Source: Pseudaquabacterium terrae
GTDB taxonomy: Bacteria; Pseudomonadota; Gammaproteobacteria; Burkholderiales; Burkholderiaceae_C
NCBI RefSeq assembly: GCF_013266755.1
Contig: NZ_JABRWJ010000005.1
Coordinates: forward strand, 186,001 to 250,000
Reading direction: 5' to 3'
DNA length: 64,000 nucleotides
Each line of letters opens with the position of its first letter. Position 1 is the first letter of the stretch. Made by a program: the position numbers and the translations under genes. This document shows, piece by piece, positions 1 through 10,313 of this stretch. Under the pieces are notes generated by a model. The model was not told the origin of the DNA, did no database searches, and saw only the letters and a program-made list of their open reading frames with translations.

Positions 1-183
1 ATGACGAACGTCGCCAACGACTTGATCGCAGACAGGCGCCGCGCGTTCGACGCCGTCGCGCGCAAGTACGGCTGCACGCTGCAGACGCTGGCAGCGGAGC
101 ACGTCGCCGAGGAGCGCCTGGGCGACCTGTTCGCCGATCTGCGCCGCCTCGAAGCCGAGCTGCAGGAGGGCGACGGATGCTGA
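1..183 (+). CDS. small hypothetical protein of the mobile element
   Basis: A 60-residue, charged, probably helical protein with no family I recognise. It begins with an ATG at the first base of the window, so a longer N-terminus starting upstream cannot be excluded. Its end overlaps the start of the primase-helicase gene by 7 bp, which suggests co-transcription and translational coupling with the replication gene. The C-terminal half is rich in Glu, Leu and Arg and could form a coiled coil. Function unknown; the position suggests a small accessory of the replication module. Confidence 0.55.
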   Translation: MTNVANDLIADRRRAFDAVARKYGCTLQTLAAEHVAEERLGDLFADLRRLEAELQEGDGC

Positions 184-2936
184 ACCAGCACATCACCACC
201 CTCCGCACGCGCGGCCCCCTGCTCGCAAAACAGTGGCGAGCTGACGGCACGATCGCCAACTACGATTCGCCGCGGCAGTACACGTTCAAGCGCCAGGTCG
301 TCGGCGGCATCGACCACCTGTACCTGTTGCTGCAGGAACTGCAGCGCGACCCGCGCAGCTGCATCATCCGCGGCCAGCCGAAGGCCGGCACCGACCCGAA
401 GGCGGTGGTGCTGCGCAACCTCGACACCTTCGAGGACGAGCCCAGCCACCTGTTCATGGTCGACGTCGACCGGTTCGAAGGCACGGTCGAGGAGTTCGTC
501 GCCACGCTGCCCGCGCCGCTGCAGGACGCGTCTTTCGTGTGGCAGCTGTCCGGCTCGCACGGCCACCCGTCGAAGGGCGGCGGGCTGCGGGCTCACCTGT
601 GGTTCTGGCTCGAGACACCACTCACGTCCGAGCAGGCCGAGGCCTGGGCGAAACAGTGGATCCCGCAGGCCGACTGCACCGTCCACCGCACCGTGCAGGT
701 CAACTACACCGCGGCGCCCGTGATGGATGACGGCGTCAGCGATCCGATCGCGCAGCGCCTGGGCTTCGTCGAGGGCATGCTCGGCCACAACGTCATCATC
801 CCCGCGGACATGCCCGTGCCCGAAGGGCAGACCCGGCGCACGCGCCGCGCGGAGCGCGCGAGCGGGATGGTGGATCCGCGCGACAAGCCCGGCATCATCG
901 GCGCGCTCGCCAGGGCGCACCCCGCCGCCGAGATCGTCACGCTGTGGCCCGACCACTTCGAGGCCGGCAGCAAAGAGCATCGGATCACGTGGCTCGCCGG
1001 TGGCGGCGCGAAGGAGGGCGTGGGCGTCGCCGACAACGGCACGCACCTGTTCAACACGCACAGCACGAGCCCCATCGCCGACCGCGCGGCCAACCTCTTT
1101 GACTTCGTGCGCGCGCACGTCTTCGGCCACCTCGACGAGGGCATCGACCAGGACGTGCTTGACCTGGACGTCACCGCGGCGCCGAGCTACCTCGCCACCG
1201 TCGAATGGGCGCTGTCCCTGCCGACCGTGCAAGCCGAAGTGCAGGCCGAGCAAGCGGCCATGGCTGAGATGCGGGAGACGCTGGCCGCCGGGGCCGACGC
1301 CGCCACCAGGGACTATGAGGACGCACCGAATGCCGCGGGAGCGGCTGTCTACTTCGCGAGCAACCTGCCAGCTGCGGACCCGGGCGCGGAGTCGGCTGCG
1401 CGTTGCCCGGCCGAAAGCACAGTAGCCACCCCAGCGGATTCCAGCGGCGTCGTCGGGCCGGCCGTCGCGGCCGAGGCCGAGGCCGACGCCGACGATGGAC
1501 AAGAGGACGAGGACGAGCGCCGGGTGCTGGTGCCGGGTGAGCACTCCGTGATCGCCAGCAAGTTGTGGCGGCGCAAGTTCGGCGGCCCCACCGCGCCCGG
1601 CCTGATTCGCTGGAACTGTGACTGGTACCGGCGATCCGGTGACGGCTCGCACTTCGGCGAGATGCCGGGGGAGGCCCTGGCCGCCGCGTGCCACAGGTAC
1701 CTCGTGAGCGCCCGGAAGATGACCCAGCCAGGGCCTGCCGGCGAGCCGGCGAGGCTGGTGCCCTTCAACCCCAACAAGCAGGCGACGGATGAGGTGATCT
1801 ACGCGCTGCGGACGCTGTGCCATCTCGACGAGCAGGCGGCGCCCGTCTGGATCGGCGGCAAGGCCCCGACGGGCTATGAAGGCCTCCGGGCAGCGGACCT
1901 GGTGGCGCTGCGCAACGGCCTGTTCCACCTCCCGACGCGTCGCCTGTTTCCGCACACGCCGCACCGCTTCGGCCTCGCGGCCCTGCCGTACGAGTTCGAC
2001 CCGACCGCACAGTGCCCGGAATGGCTTAAGTTCGTGCGGTCCGTGTGGCCGAATGACGATCAGACCATCGGAGCTCTGCAAGAGACGCTCGGCTACCTCG
2101 TCTCCGGCGACACGCGACAGCAGAAGGTGTTCTTCCTGGTGGGCCCTCGCCGCAGCGGCAAGGGGACGATCTGCCGCGTAATCAACGGCCTGCTGGGTAG
2201 CGACAACGTGGCCGGGCCGACGCTTCAGACACTGGCGAGTCAGTTCGGCATGGCATCCCTGATCGGCCGCACGGCTGCGATCATCGGCGACGCGCGCAGT
2301 GGCGGCGCCAACGTGCAGACCACCGTCGAGCGCCTGCTCGGCATCAGCGGCGGCGATGTCCAGACAGTCGAGAGGAAGAACCGCACCGACTGGATCGGCC
2401 GGCTTGGCGTGCGCTTCGTCATCTGCTCCAACGAGGTGCCGAAGCTGCCCGACGCCAGCGGCGCGCTCGTCGGCCGGATGCTGGTGCTGCGAATGGAGCA
2501 CTCGTTCTTCGGCAAGGAGGACCCCGCCTTGGCTGACCGGCTGGTGCAGGAACTGCCGGGCATCCTGAACTGGGCCCTCGAAGGCCTGCAGCGCGTGGAG
2601 CAGCGCGGCCGGTTCCAGCAACCTGACGCGAGCGCGCAAGTGATCGAGCAGATGGAGGCGCTCGGGTCGCAGGTCGGCGAGTTCCTGAAGGACTGCTGCA
2701 TCCTCGGCGCCGGCGAGCGCATGCCGAAACAACCGTCCTACAACGCCTATCGGCTGTGGGCCCGCGATCAGGGCATCAGCCACCCCGACCCGTTGGGCAC
2801 GTTCGCTCGCAACCTGTACGCGGCGGGGGTCGGCATCCGCGAGGTTCGCCCGAACGGAGCTCAACGGGCGCGGGCGTTCGCCGGCATGCGGTTGACAGAC
2901 GAGTGGGCCGACCGCGTGGACACTGCAGAGCTGTAG
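177..2936 (+). CDS. primase-helicase, phage P4 alpha-like (PrimPol plus SF3 helicase)
   Basis: A 919-residue replication protein. The N-terminal part looks like an archaeo-eukaryotic-type primase: an acidic MVDVD motif (D96, D98) and a GLRAHLWFW motif (H140). An Ala/Glu/Asp-rich linker (about residues 360-460) leads to a D5_N-like region and an SF3 helicase. The helicase has Walker A GPRRSGKGT (K662), a Walker B-like stretch TAAIIGDARSG, and motif C VICSNE (N752). Such proteins prime and unwind DNA at the origin of P4-like satellites, phages and plasmids; P4 alpha also binds the origin iterons. An iteron-bearing inverted repeat begins about 50 bp after the stop codon, supporting a self-contained replicon. 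It overlaps the preceding small ORF. Family assignment is confident; origin recognition is inferred. Confidence 0.9.
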   Translation: MLNQHITTLRTRGPLLAKQWRADGTIANYDSPRQYTFKRQVVGGIDHLYLLLQELQRDPRSCIIRGQPKAGTDPKAVVLRNLDTFEDEPSHLFMVDVDRFEGTVEEFVATLPAPLQDASFVWQLSGSHGHPSKGGGLRAHLWFWLETPLTSEQAEAWAKQWIPQADCTVHRTVQVNYTAAPVMDDGVSDPIAQRLGFVEGMLGHNVIIPADMPVPEGQTRRTRRAERASGMVDPRDKPGIIGALARAHPAAEIVTLWPDHFEAGSKEHRITWLAGGGAKEGVGVADNGTHLFNTHSTSPIADRAANLFDFVRAHVFGHLDEGIDQDVLDLDVTAAPSYLATVEWALSLPTVQAEVQAEQAAMAEMRETLAAGADAATRDYEDAPNAAGAAVYFASNLPAADPGAESAARCPAESTVATPADSSGVVGPAVAAEAEADADDGQEDEDERRVLVPGEHSVIASKLWRRKFGGPTAPGLIRWNCDWYRRSGDGSHFGEMPGEALAAACHRYLVSARKMTQPGPAGEPARLVPFNPNKQATDEVIYALRTLCHLDEQAAPVWIGGKAPTGYEGLRAADLVALRNGLFHLPTRRLFPHTPHRFGLAALPYEFDPTAQCPEWLKFVRSVWPNDDQTIGALQETLGYLVSGDTRQQKVFFLVGPRRSGKGTICRVINGLLGSDNVAGPTLQTLASQFGMASLIGRTAAIIGDARSGGANVQTTVERLLGISGGDVQTVERKNRTDWIGRLGVRFVICSNEVPKLPDASGALVGRMLVLRMEHSFFGKEDPALADRLVQELPGILNWALEGLQRVEQRGRFQQPDASAQVIEQMEALGSQVGEFLKDCCILGAGERMPKQPSYNAYRLWARDQGISHPDPLGTFARNLYAAGVGIREVRPNGAQRARAFAGMRLTDEWADRVDTAEL

Positions 2937-2984
2937 GCCAAGAGCTACCGCGGCAGTCCCCCGGGTGCGGTCCACTCCGGGGGG

Positions 2985-3232
2985 CCGTCCAACCACCGTC
3001 CACCATCCCGTCCGGGGCGCGCAGGCGCCGCGAAGTTGCTTACGTTGCCGGGTGGGGTCAGGAGTTGTCGTCGGTAAACGACCCGTCCACCCGTCCACCC
3101 CCGTCCACCCTATTTTGAGGTTCAATTTTCCTAAGGGGAGTCTTGGGCCAGGGAGCGCAACACAAGGCGCGAGGCATAGGTGTGTGAGCCGCAATGGCCC
3201 GTCCGGGTGGACGGGGGTGGACGGATGGACGG
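2985..3232. other. probable replication origin of the element (inverted iteron array with AT-rich core)
   Basis: The 627-bp gap after the primase-helicase holds eight copies of a 9-mer, CCGTCCACC or its complement GGTGGACGG. Copies in one orientation lie at 2985 (one mismatch), 2996, 3083, 3091 and 3101. Copies in the other orientation lie at 3206, 3216 and 3224 (one mismatch). The 28-bp blocks 3083-3110 and 3205-3232 are inverted copies with 27 of 28 matches, separated by 94 bp. The spacer starts with a very AT-rich stretch at 3111-3134, unusual in this GC-rich DNA and suited to strand opening. The 9-mer matches the P4 alpha iteron core GGTGAACAG at seven of nine positions (from memory of the P4 literature). 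Origin function is inferred from location and architecture. Confidence 0.7.
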
Positions 3233-3563
3233 CAGCCCCACGGGCGCGCGCCCTGGCCCTGCTGGTGCGGAAGCGTGGTTTCGACGCGACGCACATGCGG
3301 CACCGCTAACACTCCGCTGACGCGCGTGTGAAGCCGGCGTGCAAGTTCAGCTGACCATGACTCACGAGGCGCGGCGCGTGCCTACCCGTTCCGCGGCAGG
3401 GGCGCGTGCTCCTGCTCGATCCACACCCTGCGCAGTCGGTCGCGAACGCTCTCGTGTGAGCAGCGCTAACCGCAGTGTCGTCGAGGGAATCCTGCGCTGC
3501 CTTGGTCGGCGCCGGCACTGGACCTAGGCTGCGCAGCTTCTCCACTTCACCGAGCAACCACTC

Positions 3564-3953
3564 ATGACGGACGTGCCGAAGAAGACGCGCAGGACGAAGA
3601 CACCGCAGGAGGCCGCAGCCGCCGCCGGGCTTGAAGGCCTGCAGCTGATCGGCGCTGACGACCTCGCCGCCCTGCTCGGCCGGTCGCCCCGAACCGTGAG
3701 GGTCGACGCGTCCCGCAACCCTGGGAACCTGCCCCCTCGTTTCCACGTGCCCGGCACCCGCAAGCTCGCGTGGCGCGTCGTCGATGTGCGGCGCTGGTCC
3801 GAGTCAACCGCAGCAGAGGCGCGCGTGAAGGCTGCGGCTGCGAAGGCGCTGTACGAGCGCGAACAGCAGGCGGCGAGGACAGCGAGCCTGCGCGTCAAGT
3901 CGGTGAAGCTACCTCCCCCAACCGCGTGGCCCAGCGAGCCGGACGACGAGTGA
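3564..3953 (+). CDS. AlpA-like winged helix-turn-helix regulator
   Basis: A 129-residue protein with a basic N-terminal tail, then a MerR/AlpA-type winged HTH at about residues 27-80: LIGADDLAALLGRSPRTVR forms the helix-turn-helix and the RKLAWRVVDVRRW stretch the wing. The C-terminal third is Ala/Lys/Arg-rich and probably helical. AlpA-like proteins control excision and replication genes of P4-like elements, which fits the neighbouring alpha-type primase and origin. No strong Shine-Dalgarno is visible before the ATG. The regulatory target is unknown; it could equally be an excisionase. Confidence 0.7.
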   Translation: MTDVPKKTRRTKTPQEAAAAAGLEGLQLIGADDLAALLGRSPRTVRVDASRNPGNLPPRFHVPGTRKLAWRVVDVRRWSESTAAEARVKAAAAKALYEREQQAARTASLRVKSVKLPPPTAWPSEPDDE

Positions 3954-5182: not shown

Positions 5183-5791
5183 CTACTCGACACCGCCCAG
5201 CGTCGAAGGGGGCAGGGAAGCGGCAGCGGGCGACGCCGCCAAAGGTTCACCGCCCTCGGCCCCTGCCGCGGCTTGCGCGGCGGCATTCGTCGCGCCCTCC
5301 TGCAGATCGAGCTTCCACTGGCGAGCCGAGTCGGGGAGCGGAAGGTCCGACACTGAGGTGGCCTGCATGCCGAGGGACTTGGCCGTCTGACAGAGCCCGG
5401 CGTCATCACTGATGATCATCGTTGCTCCGGCGACCTTGGCGATTGCCACCACCTGCCGGTCGATCTTGATCCGCTGCCACGCGTCCTTCCGCCCTCCGCG
5501 CTTGTCACCCTTCCTGATGAGTTCTCGATCGATCTGGGCGCACTCCATCGCAGCGCGCCTATCGAACGGCGCGACCTGCACCGCCGCCTTGCGATCGAGT
5601 GTGGTCAGCCAGTCCGCGGAACCTGCATCGGCCCCGACGAGAAATTCGGCGACGACCGGCGTGGGAATGACAACTCGGCCCTTCACTGCCGCAACGCGCG
5701 TGAGGAGAAACTCGAAGCGCTGGCGATCCGGATCGTCTGGGTCAAGACGTGACCAGCACACAAGACACTTGGTGTCGAGCGCGACGATCAC
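5183..5791 (-). CDS. PIN-domain ribonuclease-like protein (VapC-like)
   Basis: A 202-residue protein. The PIN fold carries the expected acidic residues: D6 in ALDTK, E49 in VVAEFL, D111 in IDRQVVAIAK, and D129/D130 in IISDDAGL. PIN domains are metal-dependent RNases found as VapC toxins and in defence genes. The catalytic acids look intact, so activity is expected. The C-terminal 40 residues are a low-complexity Ala/Gly/Pro tail not needed for the fold. It is the second gene of a minus-strand pair: its ATG overlaps the stop of the 251-residue partner by 4 bp (ATGA), indicating translational coupling. Toxin function is inferred; the partner is not a standard VapB. Confidence 0.8.
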   Translation of the reverse strand: MIVALDTKCLVCWSRLDPDDPDRQRFEFLLTRVAAVKGRVVIPTPVVAEFLVGADAGSADWLTTLDRKAAVQVAPFDRRAAMECAQIDRELIRKGDKRGGRKDAWQRIKIDRQVVAIAKVAGATMIISDDAGLCQTAKSLGMQATSVSDLPLPDSARQWKLDLQEGATNAAAQAAAGAEGGEPLAASPAAASLPPSTLGGVE

Positions 5792-6543
5792 TCGCGGCCC
5801 CTGATGTCATCGAGGAGCTTCGAGGCATCCTCCTTGGACATGTTTGCCCAGCCGGTATGGCGGATCGCGCCCAGGTCCCCGAACACCTCCACAGCACTTC
5901 GCTGATCGAGCTGCTCGATCGCGTCGGCATAGAGCGAGTTCGGCACCCAGTTCCCTTCTGGTGTGCGCTTCCACGTGCCGTGCACGCGGATGCGAAGGGC
6001 AGCACCTCGAAAGCATGCTGCAGCCTGTCGGGCAAGCGCCATGTCCCGCACTTGCACGCTCGTGATCGCCTTGGTGCTCGGGTCCAGCAGGCGAATGTGA
6101 GCCGTGTCGTCCACGCCTTCTACGGCGACCACGACGCCATCGATGTCGGCGACATCAGCGACTACGACCTCAGCCGAAATGCTCGGCTGGGGCAGCGATG
6201 GAAAAACGATGACTTCGTCATTCTTCTCATCGACGACTGCACCTCGCGCCCCGTCGGACCGCAACAGGCTTGTGAGCCTCTCATAGGCAGACCGACCTGG
6301 AGCCTCGTCGTCGTTCGCCGCTTTGCGAAGCCGCTGCCGCGTGGTCGACACGAGACGCGTGTTCCGTTCCTTCACACGAAGGACGACACTGCCCTTCACC
6401 ACCCCGGCGAAGACGGGCCGGCCATCGTCGCCGAGCAGGTCGGCGAATCGACCTAGATACTCGGCCAGGCGCCCAAGTTGAAGCGTCGACAGGCTCACGC
6501 CGCGAATGCGGAGTGCGAAGTCCCAGTCGGCGCGGCGGGTCAT
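5788..6543 (-). CDS. uncharacterised partner of the PIN nuclease
   Basis: A 251-residue protein from an unknown family. The N-terminal 70 residues contain helices and then a beta-rich motif (FAGVVKGSVVLRVKERNTR). The middle is charged, the stretch from about residue 120 (ISAEVVVADVADIDGVVVAVEG) is beta-rich, and the C-terminus (about 215-251) is helical. No DNA-binding or catalytic motif is obvious. It is translated first and overlaps the PIN gene by 4 bp, the position an antitoxin or regulatory partner would occupy. It is much larger than VapB-type antitoxins, so the pair may be a distinct two-gene toxin-antitoxin or defence unit. A LexA box lies 55 bp upstream of its start. Confidence 0.6.
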   Translation of the reverse strand: MTRRADWDFALRIRGVSLSTLQLGRLAEYLGRFADLLGDDGRPVFAGVVKGSVVLRVKERNTRLVSTTRQRLRKAANDDEAPGRSAYERLTSLLRSDGARGAVVDEKNDEVIVFPSLPQPSISAEVVVADVADIDGVVVAVEGVDDTAHIRLLDPSTKAITSVQVRDMALARQAAACFRGAALRIRVHGTWKRTPEGNWVPNSLYADAIEQLDQRSAVEVFGDLGAIRHTGWANMSKEDASKLLDDIRGRE

Positions 6544-6597
6544 GTGATCGAGTATGTCACCCGTTCGGCGCCGTGGTAGGGCATGCCCCCTCTAAGA

Positions 6598-6613
6598 CTG
6601 TATATTTGTACAG
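6598..6613. promoter_or_regulatory. LexA (SOS) box
   Basis: CTGTATATTTGTACAG is a full match to CTGT-N8-ACAG, the LexA site of gamma- and betaproteobacteria, with an AT-rich centre. It sits between the divergent PIN operon (start 6543) and the plus-strand 123-residue gene. An embedded TATATT (6601-6606) could be the -10 of a plus-strand promoter, so LexA would block it directly. Divergent control of both sides is plausible but unproven. Confidence 0.75.
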
Positions 6614-6984
6614 TGATCGTGGACGTGACTGTGCTCCGCCGAGACGGCCGGAAGCTTCCTGAACTTGAGTTGCGGCTGCAACCTGTCCTGCGTGGCGATC
6701 TTGGTGTCGAGCACGAAGGCCAGAGCGGCCCGGTCGCGCGACTTCGGTCGTCGACCGCGCGGCATGAGCTGTTCAGGCCGTTGCTGAACGTCCGCATCGT
6801 ACCGATGCGAGGCGACAGCTTTGTCGTCGCCGGCGTACAGGAGACGCAACCTCCCGGGGCTTCACGGCTACTTCAGCGACAGGCCTGGTGGTGTCGGTTG
6901 CCAAAGGACGACTTAGCCGCCGCGCAGCGCCTGCTGCTCGCCAAGCTTGGCATCGGCACCGGAGTGCTGGTCGACGACGACTGA
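6613..6984 (+). CDS. hypothetical protein downstream of the LexA box
   Basis: About 123 residues with a beta-rich start (VIVDVTVLRRDGRKLPELELRL) and a second conserved-looking block (LLNVRIVPMRGDSFVVAGVQE). It has no recognised family, but composition and periodicity look like a real protein. The start is uncertain: an upstream ATG at 6583 is in frame but would put the LexA box inside the gene, so GTG at 6613, 6619 or 6625 is preferred. If the embedded -10 is used, the transcript would be almost leaderless. Possibly an SOS-induced element gene. Confidence 0.45.
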   Translation: MIVDVTVLRRDGRKLPELELRLQPVLRGDLGVEHEGQSGPVARLRSSTARHELFRPLLNVRIVPMRGDSFVVAGVQETQPPGASRLLQRQAWWCRLPKDDLAAAQRLLLAKLGIGTGVLVDDD

Positions 6985-7166
6985 ACTTCTGTGCGCCCTC
7001 CGAGAGTGATGGACAGTAGGTCTCGAGCGACGCACAGTGCGAGCCGGATCTGGGCCAAGGGCAGCGAACATTGCCATATTCGCAGGCTGGACACCACGGA
7101 GCGGCGCGCGCCGACTCCCGGCGTGATCGCCCAGATCCGCCGAACTTGAATTTCGTTGGGAGAAAT

Positions 7167-8678
7167 ATGCAGCAGACGACAACAGCGCAGCCGGTGGTCT
7201 GGGAAGGCGACTTCTTTCAGCGTCATCGCTTCGCCGACTTCTTGACGGAGTACCTCAGGACCCAGTCGCACGCGCCTGGGAAGTCCGAACTGCGTCCCTT
7301 CTCGCTTGCGCTTGATGCTGGCTGGGGCCGAGGCAAAACGTTCTTCGTCGAGCGGTGGGCAAAGGACTTGTCGACGAGAGCACCGAGACACCCGGTGCTG
7401 CTGTTCAACGCTTGGGCAGCCGACATCGCTGCGGACCCGCTCGTCGCATTCATGGCGGCGTTCAAGGCAAAACTCGACGAGGAAGTTCAGGCTCTCGACT
7501 TGGTAGCTGCCACCGGGGAGAGCGTTAAGAAGATGGTGAAAGGCATGCGACGCGCTTACCTCCCAGCCGGCAAAGTGCTGTTGAGGGGGCTCTTCGAGAA
7601 GTGGAGCGGCGCGGGTGCTGACGAATTCTTCGAGGCGCTCAAGACCGGAGACACGGACATCGATCAAGCGAGACTCGAAGAACTGGGCGAAGAGAGCTTC
7701 AAGACAGTCGGCAAAGGGTTGGATGAGTTCTTTCAAAAGGCGCTTGCAGAGCAAACCGACCTTGCCAAGGTCGTCGCTGAGCTTCGTTCGTCGATCGAAA
7801 TGACGTTGTCAACTCTTGCCCAACAGGGAGGAGTCGCCCTTCCGATGTTTGTGTTCGTCGACGAGCTGGATCGCTGCCGGCCGCCGTTCGCGATTGCGAT
7901 GCTCGAGGGCATTAAGCACCTGTTTGGGGTAAAGGGCGTCTGCTACGTCGTCTCGACGAACTTGGCTCAGTTGGCAGAGGCGACGCGCGCTGTCTATGGG
8001 CCTGGCTTCAATGGTGCGGGATACCTCAAGCGGTTCTTCGACGTTCAGTGCGAGCTACCCGCGCCCTCACCGCTGAAGTTCGCCGAGTCGTTGTTTGCGG
8101 CGAGCTCTGTGATGGCAGCAGCTCAAGGCCGGCTCGCTCACGGAATGCCCGACGGTGGCCTAAAGGACACCGACTGGGGCGAGACTGCACCCGCAGCCTT
8201 TTGCTGGGTAGCGGAAGAGTTCGGCCTCGACTTCCGCTCTCAGCAGCAAATGTTCGCGGTGGCAGAAGCCAGCGTCAGCGCCCTAGGCACGCAAGACATC
8301 CACCTCCTTTGGCTAGTCATCCTCTGCGCGATTCGGCACGCCAATCCGCCGTTCTTCGAAAGACTCGCGCGCCGTGAAATGGATATCGAGGCGGCCTGGT
8401 CCGATCTGCTAATTGTGACGAGACCATACAGGCGTACCGCATACGACGCGAGCAGCCCCCAAGGGGCCGAGGCAGGTGTGACCCTTCGCGAGGTTGCCGC
8501 GCAGTTCTACGCGAATGCGTTCAAACTCTCCAAGGCTGCCGCGAGAGCGCCAACGACGGATTTTGACTACCCCAAGCGCTGGCTTCAGCACCTGAAGAAG
8601 GCGGGCCCACGAGGGGATTCAGAGTTGCGCCAGTACTTCTCGGCCGTGCGCTGCGCAGGGTTCATATCCATCGACTAA
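7167..8678 (+). CDS. KAP-family P-loop NTPase
   Basis: A 503-residue protein. The start is the ATG at 7167, with GGGAGA just upstream. Walker A is GWGRGKT (residues 52-58, K57), and Walker B is FVFVDELDRC (about 228-237), the typical KAP signature. After it comes the IKHLFGVKGVCYVVSTN sensor region and an arginine-containing LKRFFD. Many KAP proteins have membrane helices inserted between the Walker motifs. Here the insert (about 95-220) is long, charged and helical without a clear transmembrane segment, so the protein is probably soluble. KAP NTPases occur in phage-exclusion and defence contexts. The gene looks less GC-rich than the chromosomal part and stands alone, with 182 bp of non-coding DNA upstream. 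A defence role is inference. Confidence 0.85.
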   Translation: MQQTTTAQPVVWEGDFFQRHRFADFLTEYLRTQSHAPGKSELRPFSLALDAGWGRGKTFFVERWAKDLSTRAPRHPVLLFNAWAADIAADPLVAFMAAFKAKLDEEVQALDLVAATGESVKKMVKGMRRAYLPAGKVLLRGLFEKWSGAGADEFFEALKTGDTDIDQARLEELGEESFKTVGKGLDEFFQKALAEQTDLAKVVAELRSSIEMTLSTLAQQGGVALPMFVFVDELDRCRPPFAIAMLEGIKHLFGVKGVCYVVSTNLAQLAEATRAVYGPGFNGAGYLKRFFDVQCELPAPSPLKFAESLFAASSVMAAAQGRLAHGMPDGGLKDTDWGETAPAAFCWVAEEFGLDFRSQQQMFAVAEASVSALGTQDIHLLWLVILCAIRHANPPFFERLARREMDIEAAWSDLLIVTRPYRRTAYDASSPQGAEAGVTLREVAAQFYANAFKLSKAAARAPTTDFDYPKRWLQHLKKAGPRGDSELRQYFSAVRCAGFISID

Positions 8679-8685
8679 CGCAAGG

Positions 8686-9696
8686 TCAAAGCGGCGCGAT
8701 GTCCCCTCGTTTCCGGACATCCAGCTCGATCTCGATGTCGGCCTTGTCGAGCCACGGGACATCCCGCCGCTTGAGCATCGCCGCCAGCTCGGCGGTCGAG
8801 TACGCGGCGAACTTTCGCCCCGGGACCTGGCTGGGCTTGCGATCGTCGACACCGGCCGTCGACTGCCCGGCGAACGAACCCCATGGACCACGCGCAGCGC
8901 CCGGCTGCACCTGAACGCCCCCACCCGGGCGGCGAACCTCTCGCGTCGTCGTCTTCGTCTCGGCACCGGTCTTCGGATCGATCTCGTTGCGCTCGATCGT
9001 GGTCATGTCCTGCTCGCGCGGCCCGGTGGCGCCCTGCCCGTTCTTCGCCTTGATCAGGGCCACCTGCTGCTGCAGTTCAGACAGGCGCTTGACCTTCTCG
9101 GCGTCGCCGATGGCCGGGTTCGCGTTCAGCGAGGCGGCCTGCTCGTAGAGTGCGCCGAGCTTCTGCTGGTCCTCGAGCGTCAGCCGCTTCGCGTCGAGCT
9201 CGACGCCCAGGATGCGGGTGCGCGCCGCGGACTCAGCCGTGGCGGCGCGGGAGGCCGCCGTCTCGGTCGCCGCCGTCTTGTTGCGCAGGCCCTGCAGGTG
9301 GCGCGGGTCGTTGAGCGCCGCCGTCTCGGCGTCGTGCCGCGCTTGGTCGACCAGCCGCTGCCGCTCCACCTCGATCGGCGTCAGCGCCAAGCCGCGTTCG
9401 ACATCCACGGGGATCTCGGCCCTTTTCTGGTCGAGCGCGCGGGCCGCGGCCGCCCTGGCGCTACGCGCCGTGAACTCCAGCTGTGCCGCTGCTTGCTGCC
9501 CGGTCAACCGATCGAGTGCGTCCTCTCGCTCAGCCTTGCGCCGGTACGCGTCGATGCGCAGCGCCTTCTGCTCGTCGATGTCGGCCATCTGCTTGGCGAG
9601 CGTCCCCCGGCGCTGGTCCTCGATGTGCCGCTGCGCGACTTCGCCGAGCGCGCCCGCGGCGCCGCCCATCGCGCCGGCGATGATTCCGATATTCAT
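8686..9696 (-). CDS. phage-like coiled-coil protein (possible internal virion protein)
   Basis: A 336-residue protein. The start is the ATG at 9696, chosen because AAGGAA lies just upstream. It begins with a Gly/Ala-rich hydrophobic stretch (NIGIIAGAMGGAAGALGE), followed by about 200 residues of Ala/Arg/Glu/Gln-rich heptad-like coiled coil, then a low-complexity Thr/Gly region and a short ordered C-terminus. This layout resembles internal virion or tail-associated proteins of podophage-like phages, but I cannot name a family. It converges on the KAP gene with a 7-bp gap. No other virion genes are present, so it looks like the surviving end of a late operon or a captured gene. Confidence 0.6.
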   Translation of the reverse strand: MNIGIIAGAMGGAAGALGEVAQRHIEDQRRGTLAKQMADIDEQKALRIDAYRRKAEREDALDRLTGQQAAAQLEFTARSARAAAARALDQKRAEIPVDVERGLALTPIEVERQRLVDQARHDAETAALNDPRHLQGLRNKTAATETAASRAATAESAARTRILGVELDAKRLTLEDQQKLGALYEQAASLNANPAIGDAEKVKRLSELQQQVALIKAKNGQGATGPREQDMTTIERNEIDPKTGAETKTTTREVRRPGGGVQVQPGAARGPWGSFAGQSTAGVDDRKPSQVPGRKFAAYSTAELAAMLKRRDVPWLDKADIEIELDVRKRGDIAPL

Positions 9697-10184
9697 GCTG
9701 GTTCCTTTCGGCGCGAGGACGGCGCCGGCTTCTGTGGCTGAGCGCTGGATCGGCGCGGCCATGAAAAAAGCGCCTCTCGGGCGCTGTGGATGATGGAGGG
9801 CGTAAGGGCCCTACCCCGGATTCTAGCCCACGCCCCGGGTGCAGCTTGGGACCCGTTGCTAACGCACAAAATACAGGGGTTGAGGGGGTCGATCTCTGAG
9901 GACCGTTCCGAGGGCAAAATCTTGGAAAACTGGTCCACGACCGCGCGAAATGGTGCTGAACAAGGGGGAACCTGCGCCGGCGACTTCGCCAGGGGTGTAC
10001 CGGGGTCAGTGCGTCCCCCTTCGATTTGGGGGAGCGTTTTCCCGGATTTTTCCCTTGCCTCGTATCGGCGGGCAGCCCATGAGTGGTGATCGCGCCGACC
10101 GGCCCCCCGCCAAGATGACCGGGGCCCCACTTTGCCGGGTATCCAGATTGGTATCCGAAGACGGCTCACGAGACCAGAAAGCAC
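9697..10184. other. non-coding end of the mobile element
   Basis: About 490 bp with no convincing gene between the coiled-coil gene and the tRNA terminator. It contains a small stem TCCCCC/GGGGGA (10014-10033) followed by GCGTTTT, which could be a weak plus-strand terminator. Being next to the 3' end of tRNA-Pro, it is a likely place for the attachment-site arm, but no second copy of the tRNA end is visible in the window. Confidence 0.4.
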
Positions 10185-10217: not shown

Positions 10218-10236
10218 GATTTTCCTACAAGTTCAA

Positions 10237-10313
10237 TGGTCGGGGTGGCGGGATTCGAACTCGCGACCCCTTGCACCCCATGCAAGTGCGCTACCAGGCT
10301 GCGCTACACCCCG
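10237..10313 (-). tRNA. tRNA-Pro (anticodon GGG)
   Basis: The minus strand folds as a 77-nt tRNA with encoded CCA: an acceptor stem CGGGGTG/CACCCCG (closing pair C-G), a D-arm with AGCGCAGCCTGGTAGCGC, an anticodon stem CTTGC/GCAAG with loop ATGGGGT (anticodon GGG), and a T-arm containing GTTCGAATC. It reads CCC proline codons (and CCU by wobble). It lies 35 bp after the merR-type gene in the same orientation, and its 3' end faces the mobile element, as expected for an integration target. Confidence 0.95.

Follow-up and report, generated by a model that had tools for sequence, protein, structure and literature searches.

In Gram-negative PICIs, the replication origin lies immediately 3' of the initiator gene, and two sets of iterons always flank an AT-rich region there. 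A pri-ori segment of EcCICFT073 sustained a plasmid, and a PICI needs no more than rep plus the site 3' of it (PMC6092414). In SaPIs, it is the C-terminal domain of Rep that recognises the downstream origin (PMC7581432). P4 is organized differently: in its record (X51522), the iterons clustered just past the 3' end of the alpha gene are annotated as crr, and the annotated origin (9086-9809) lies beyond the opposite end of alpha. P4-like satellites have a core of int, psu, delta, sid, alpA, epsilon, and alpha, of which at most two are missing (PMC8628076). The archaeal plasmid pRN1 requires a 100-nt stem-loop located 54 bp 3' of its gene, for which the paper states that there is no iteron structure (PMC4234260).

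Here, we focus on a repeat array in a window of 64,000 nucleotides, by which we mean the whole stretch of DNA analysed. The array is very likely where the initiator binds in the replication origin of a 13.9-kb mobile element, and it is probably that origin in full; the replication module of the element is of the PICI type. The origin would thus belong to a known class, and the element that bears it is PICI-like and not P4-like. What is unexpected is the repeat word, which is shared with phages that carry another family of helicase.

Repeat units, geometry, and frequency of the word

The array (2985-3232) starts 48 bp past the stop (2936) of a gene for a P4-family (TIGR01613) primase-helicase, as the initial annotation had placed it. 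It is made of eight CCGTCCACC/GGTGGACGG units, of which six are exact and two carry one mismatch; the eight copies first reported are therefore obtained if one mismatch is allowed, but not as exact copies. Its parts are as follows.

2985..3004, minus strand: outer left iterons, CCGTCCAAC at 2985 (one mismatch) and CCGTCCACC at 2996 (exact)
3083..3110, minus strand: left arm, three exact iterons as CCGTCCACC at 3083, 3091, and 3101
3111..3204, no strand: spacer, candidate melting region, 94 bp
3205..3232, plus strand: right arm, opposed to the left arm, GGTGGACGG at 3206 and 3216 (exact) and GATGGACGG at 3224 (one mismatch)

The two 28-nt arms are identical at 27/28 positions, in agreement with the original description of opposed blocks around a 94-bp spacer. 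The first 30 bases of the spacer, which had been called very AT-rich, have an A+T content of 63%, compared with 44% for the whole spacer and 30% for the whole window. The spacer is AT-rich relative to the genome, although the value is modest in absolute terms.

Such an array is not expected by chance. The exact 9-mer occurs seven times in the window, six of them inside the array, against 0.49 expected and a maximum of three in 100 shuffles. The array holds eight near-copies, and no 250-bp stretch held more than three in 20 shuffles of the 64 kb. The inverted-repeat score in the 500 bp 3' of the gene is 25, compared with a maximum of 14 in 200 shuffles. It had been asked whether the word might simply be common through the genome. 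There are 76 exact matches on both strands (37 + 39) in 8.04 Mb, of which six are in the array, and the reversed word occurs 212 times (106 + 106); the objection of a common word thus fails.

No second cluster was found among the 76 genomic matches. A helper or competitor phage with the same word in the same genome, which was considered, is therefore unsupported. A DNA similarity search with the array against phages and plasmids gave only short, weak matches (best E 0.07). The repeats are not coding sequence either: the array lies past the stop at 2936, and the ORFs that cross it are overlapping frames on both strands.

The element and its putative initiator

The array and the primase-helicase gene are inside a 13.9-kb element integrated in a tRNA-Pro gene. 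The features of the element that fall within the window are listed below.

177..2936, plus strand: P4-family primase-helicase gene, 919 aa (TIGR01613, PF19263, PF08706, phrog_16950)
3564..3953, plus strand: small excisionase/regulator-like protein, 129 aa (phrog_66, E 1.6e-6)
5183..5791, minus strand: PIN-domain protein, cargo (PF01850, E 2.3e-8)
5788..6543, minus strand: phrog_19868 protein, cargo paired with the PIN protein (E 2.9e-22)
7071..8678, plus strand: KAP-family P-loop NTPase, cargo, candidate defence protein (PF07693, E 2.3e-31; PADLOC PDC-S20, E 3.7e-71)
10233..10286, no strand: attR, 54 bp overlapping the tRNA-Pro gene
10237..10313, minus strand: tRNA-Pro (ggg), integration target, at the right end of the element

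The attL copy, identical to attR at 53/54 positions, lies 13,937 bp to the left, beyond the window edge. The borders are firm because a genome of the same genus (L305) has the empty site as one contiguous sequence: the left flank, one 54-bp copy, and the right flank. The element thus combines direct end repeats, an integrase (PF00589), and an empty site in a relative, as a site-specific integrated element does. In another genome of the genus (G1128:C40:37024-41761), a second copy of the 3' part of this tRNA-Pro lies at a distance of about 4.7 kb and points to a further, smaller insertion at the same site.

From the left, the order of genes is tyrosine integrase (PF00589), a small phrog_66 protein (L003:18524-18937; phrog_66 E 7e-5, and HTH_17 at E 0.029, below the cut-off), primase-helicase, array, a second phrog_66 protein, and cargo. 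No capsid or packaging genes were found among the ORFs scanned. The cargo at 5183-8678 (PIN, phrog_19868, and KAP NTPase genes, with the PADLOC PDC-S20 match and weaker matches to QatA and PifA) is a candidate defence island.

The initial annotation spoke of a P4-like replicon, a label that the gene content does not sustain. Of the P4 core, general PHROGs searches of 11 ORFs and Pfam searches of 12 ORFs found only an integrase, a primase, and phrog_66, and neither Psu, Sid, delta, nor epsilon; by the content of the ORFs scanned, the element falls outside the definition of a P4-like satellite. The PICI/SaPI pri-rep-ori organization is closer. The site is 3' of the initiator gene and has two iteron sets around an AT-rich region, as a PICI-type replication module does, and an integrase and a small regulator are encoded upstream on the same strand (PMC6092414). 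The element differs from these islands in its cargo, which is on both strands: the integrase, regulator, and primase genes run rightward, and ORFs at 5183-6543 and 8686-9762 run leftward, so the unidirectional rightward transcription of Gram-negative PICIs is lacking. As regards their AlpA-type regulator, the first phrog_66 protein is a candidate, with its HTH_17 match short of the cut-off. The repeat word also differs, in that it is absent from the PICI descriptions consulted in that paper.

The 919-aa protein belongs to the P4 family (TIGR01613, 171.9 bits against a curated cut-off of 108.7). It has an SF3 helicase with D5_N (PF08706) and DUF5906 (PF19263) and a primase-like N-terminal region. 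Residues 4-216 match phrog_16950, 'DNA primase', a match to a PHROGs family only; the N-terminal 216 residues matched no Pfam family. The N-terminal region may be a primase of the archaeo-eukaryotic type, as its DxD-like and SxH-like stretches suggest. The C-terminus resembles a winged helix, as judged from profile comparison: with its C-terminal part, the family profile hits the winged helices of RFX5 (E 1.3e-4) and RFX1 (E 9.5e-4), both of which have known structures. High-identity records covering 80% of the protein numbered zero among phages and zero among plasmids. Full-length relatives (E 1e-50 to 1e-60) were found in a single genome besides its own among 399 genomes of the order, 369 of the class, and 398 of the phylum. 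The same genome encodes a second P4-family primase homologue with 43% identity (L005, G000:C55:186001-203000, gene 6003-8549), and the region 3' of it has neither a GTGGACG cluster nor a facing repeat by score.

We propose that these parts act as follows. The element would excise, and the primase-helicase (177-2936) would bind the iterons via its C-terminal winged helix. The two facing sets of three iterons, spaced about one helical turn apart, would each seat one helicase ring, one per side of the AT-rich spacer. The spacer would then melt and the rings leave in opposite directions, so that replication would start bidirectionally and would depend on excision.

The location of the array between the primase gene and a small regulator-like gene is also what one would expect if the array served one of the element's regulators, e.g., the phrog_66 protein at 3564-3953, as an operator and had no origin function. 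This is very improbable. In relatives, what precedes the array is the primase or VapE gene, and among the loci looked at the next gene past it differs; moreover, a scan of 2850-3600, weak for this organism, found no sigma-70-like promoter.

The site 3' of the gene in P4-type relatives

The element and P4 have in common the TIGR01613 helicase family, iterons clustered immediately 3' of the gene, and a repeat that agrees at 7/9 positions (P4 type 1 repeat, GGTGAACAG, X51522). They differ in that P4 has two separate sites and the element has one array, and in that residues 1-241 of the window protein have no Toprim match. The 7/9 agreement, from which a P4-like iteron had been inferred, is correct as a count but carries little weight because P4-type relatives use differing words. 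Among 388 confirmed matches in viral contigs, we took the best 80 (L218-L297), of which 79 were scorable, and 0/79 had at least two GTGGACG within 500 bp 3' of the gene. The exact 9-mer is, in addition, shared with VapE-type phages, and the agreement was set aside as evidence.

What several of the closest relatives share is the site. With an inverted-repeat score of at least 14 in the 400 bp 3' of the gene as the threshold, an opposed repeat pair was found in 7/12 of the closest distinct viral-contig relatives, in the same place as the array and with other repeat words, and in 11/64 of all distinct ones among the best 80 of 388. At control positions, the threshold was reached in 0/64 cases inside the gene and in 0/54 cases at 800-1200 bp beyond. 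The remaining 5/12 close relatives score below 14, and only 4 of the 52 more distant ones reach it. In L220, the geometry is near that of the window: three + three TGGTCCGCG units around a 90-bp spacer. Facing repeats 3' of the gene are also present in two plasmids (L011, L012) and in a viral contig (L009). Just under the threshold is L007 (13); L014 scores 11, and by the same score no array is present in the near homologues L005 (8) and L010 (10). Whether relatives lack the repeats beside the gene, the question on which the first reading was made to hang, thus has two answers: they lack the exact word, but the closest ones do not lack the architecture.

P4 suggests a further reading, in which the array is an accessory site like crr, bound by the initiator and needed in cis, while replication starts elsewhere in the element. 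The cluster that P4 has in this position is crr and not ori, and it has facing repeats too (score 12, shuffles up to 11). For this reason, the earlier description of a complete origin is unproven; by analogy with P4 the array would be half a replicator, and by the precedent of PICIs, where the site 3' of rep suffices with rep, a whole origin (PMC6092414). Against a crr-like role, no second iteron array turned up in the element, and its other 400-bp stretches hold at most three copies of any 8-mer. We consider this role unlikely.

The arms could also act as the stem of a hairpin (cruciform) origin, as proposed for pRN1, rather than as protein-binding words. A single strand of the array folds much better than shuffled sequences do (z -6.3, 0/200), although this z-score does not discriminate because any perfect inverted repeat folds. 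The need of pRN1 for a stem-loop 3' of the gene also speaks for a hairpin, as its helicase is of the same family and has a C-terminal winged helix (PMC4234260). Yet two units of the array (2985 and 2996) lie outside the stem, and tandem repeats are superfluous for a stem. To look at tandem repetition, arms were picked solely as inverted repeats; 17/74 distinct regions passed, some of which are kin to each other (L243, L255, L294). In these 17 loci, the self-identity of the left arm is 0.43 at shift 9 and 0.50 at shift 10, compared with 0.22-0.31 at other shifts between 3 and 15. The mean of the arms' best self-identity at shifts 7-12 is 0.67, against 0.43 for shuffled arms and a largest value of 0.48 among 300 shuffled means. 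The period persists without the window and both pRN plasmids (0.40 at shift 9 and 0.52 at shift 10). A period of 9-10 bp favours tandem protein sites one helical turn apart over a plain stem, and a hairpin origin is accordingly rather unlikely.

Iterons read by the initiator, the reading we prefer, may also apply to the pRN plasmids. Like the window element, pRN1 and pRN2 combine a TIGR/DUF5906 helicase with a C-terminal winged helix and have inverted arms (20-21 nt, with a spacer of 57-58 bp). They differ in print, where the site is a stem-loop without iterons (PMC4234260). The arms of pRN1 can be read as TGTCCA twice, 9 bp apart, facing the complement.

A repeat word shared with VapE-type phages

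In viral contigs, at least 120 stretches contain two copies of the word close together. Among those listed, 22 have at least six GTGGACG in a span of 400 bp; the orientation is uniform in 12 of these and mixed in 10. The single-orientation clusters (L051, L129, L028, L039, L057, and seven more of L018-L137) often have spacings that are multiples of 12 and are probably repeats in coding sequence. Of the 10 mixed-orientation clusters listed, seven (L029, L045, L075, L094, L098, L110, L119) lie directly 3' of a gene with a VapE domain (PF05272); L107 has too little flanking sequence, and L060 is without a recognised neighbour gene. In these phages as in the window element, a helicase gene is followed at once on its 3' side by an array with the exact word GGTGGACGG. 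They differ in helicase family, and the phage arrays are longer, with alternating orientations. Among the top-ranked literature matches listed, none connects iterons with this word or with VapE.

Used as an aligned query, the seven VapE proteins gave 561 relatives, of which the best 80 were kept (L138-L217) and 76 were scorable. At least three GTGGACG occur within 500 bp 3' of the VapE gene in 25/76, which is not a prevalence because the seven seeds, picked for arrays with this same word and recognised by C-terminus, score, or contig name, are among the 25. More distant VapE relatives have other words in the same place, e.g., GGTTGGACG, AGGTTAGACG, AGGTTGGGAA, AGGTATGGAA, and TCTGGACG. Seen across the VapE 3' regions, GGTGGACGG and GGTTGGACG-TCTGGACG form a series of related words that tracks the helicase C-terminal domain.

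With nine words picked by eye, 57/76 VapE loci could be classed. The class was common to a locus and its nearest C-terminus neighbour (<60% identity) in 48/53 cases, whereas 300 shuffles averaged 13.6 and reached at most 24. With neighbours kept under 50% identity, it was 26/53 against a shuffle maximum of 24. That the word class follows the C-terminus would fit a reading head in this domain, although much of the pattern would arise from common descent by itself.

The window protein could have acquired its C-terminal domain from VapE-type phages, but this is unsupported: its likeness to VapE-type C-termini is 1.0 bit, rank 5 of 59 P4-type C-termini. Since its C-terminus is not noticeably more VapE-like than other P4-type C-termini are, the simpler reading of these comparisons is that the element and the phages may have reached GGTGGACGG independently.

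Taken more widely, and tentatively, it could be that a single origin module serves SF3 helicase initiators that end in a winged helix, in bacterial satellites, phages, and archaeal plasmids alike. In this module, two arms of two to three iterons each, with a helical turn between neighbouring iterons, would face each other across about 55-105 bp of spacer, immediately 3' of the gene. The 'stem-loop' of pRN1 would then consist of opposed iterons, with TGTCCA twice in each arm, and would not be a hairpin. The word would be set by the C-terminal domain, would change fast, and would have been reached independently by a P4-type element and VapE-type phages, which may cross-react in one cell. As arm periodicity in pRN1 (p 0.047) and pRN2 (p 0.22) is weak singly, and no facing arms were found 3' of BPP-1 bbp29, a relative credited in print with such a site (score 9, shuffles up to 11), this wider module stays a proposal. 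A possible consequence of the shared word is that the element and an unrelated VapE-type phage may compete for the same sites. The proposed origin is compact and well bounded, with its putative initiator adjoining, and there is a set of relatives that keep the architecture while the word changes. The system therefore lets two questions be addressed directly, namely what makes the C-terminal winged helix select a given word and whether 'stem-loop' origins are facing iterons.

Two further occurrences of the word were seen. Because its C-terminus is the same as that of L160, a VapE-type locus with a GGTGGACGG array from the same bacterial family as the window (L348, G1283:C1:4022000-4036000) is not an independent case. 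At L089:1751-1889, with no recognised helicase adjoining, eight GTGGACG in mixed orientation lie directly 3' of an FtsK/SpoIIIE-like gene.
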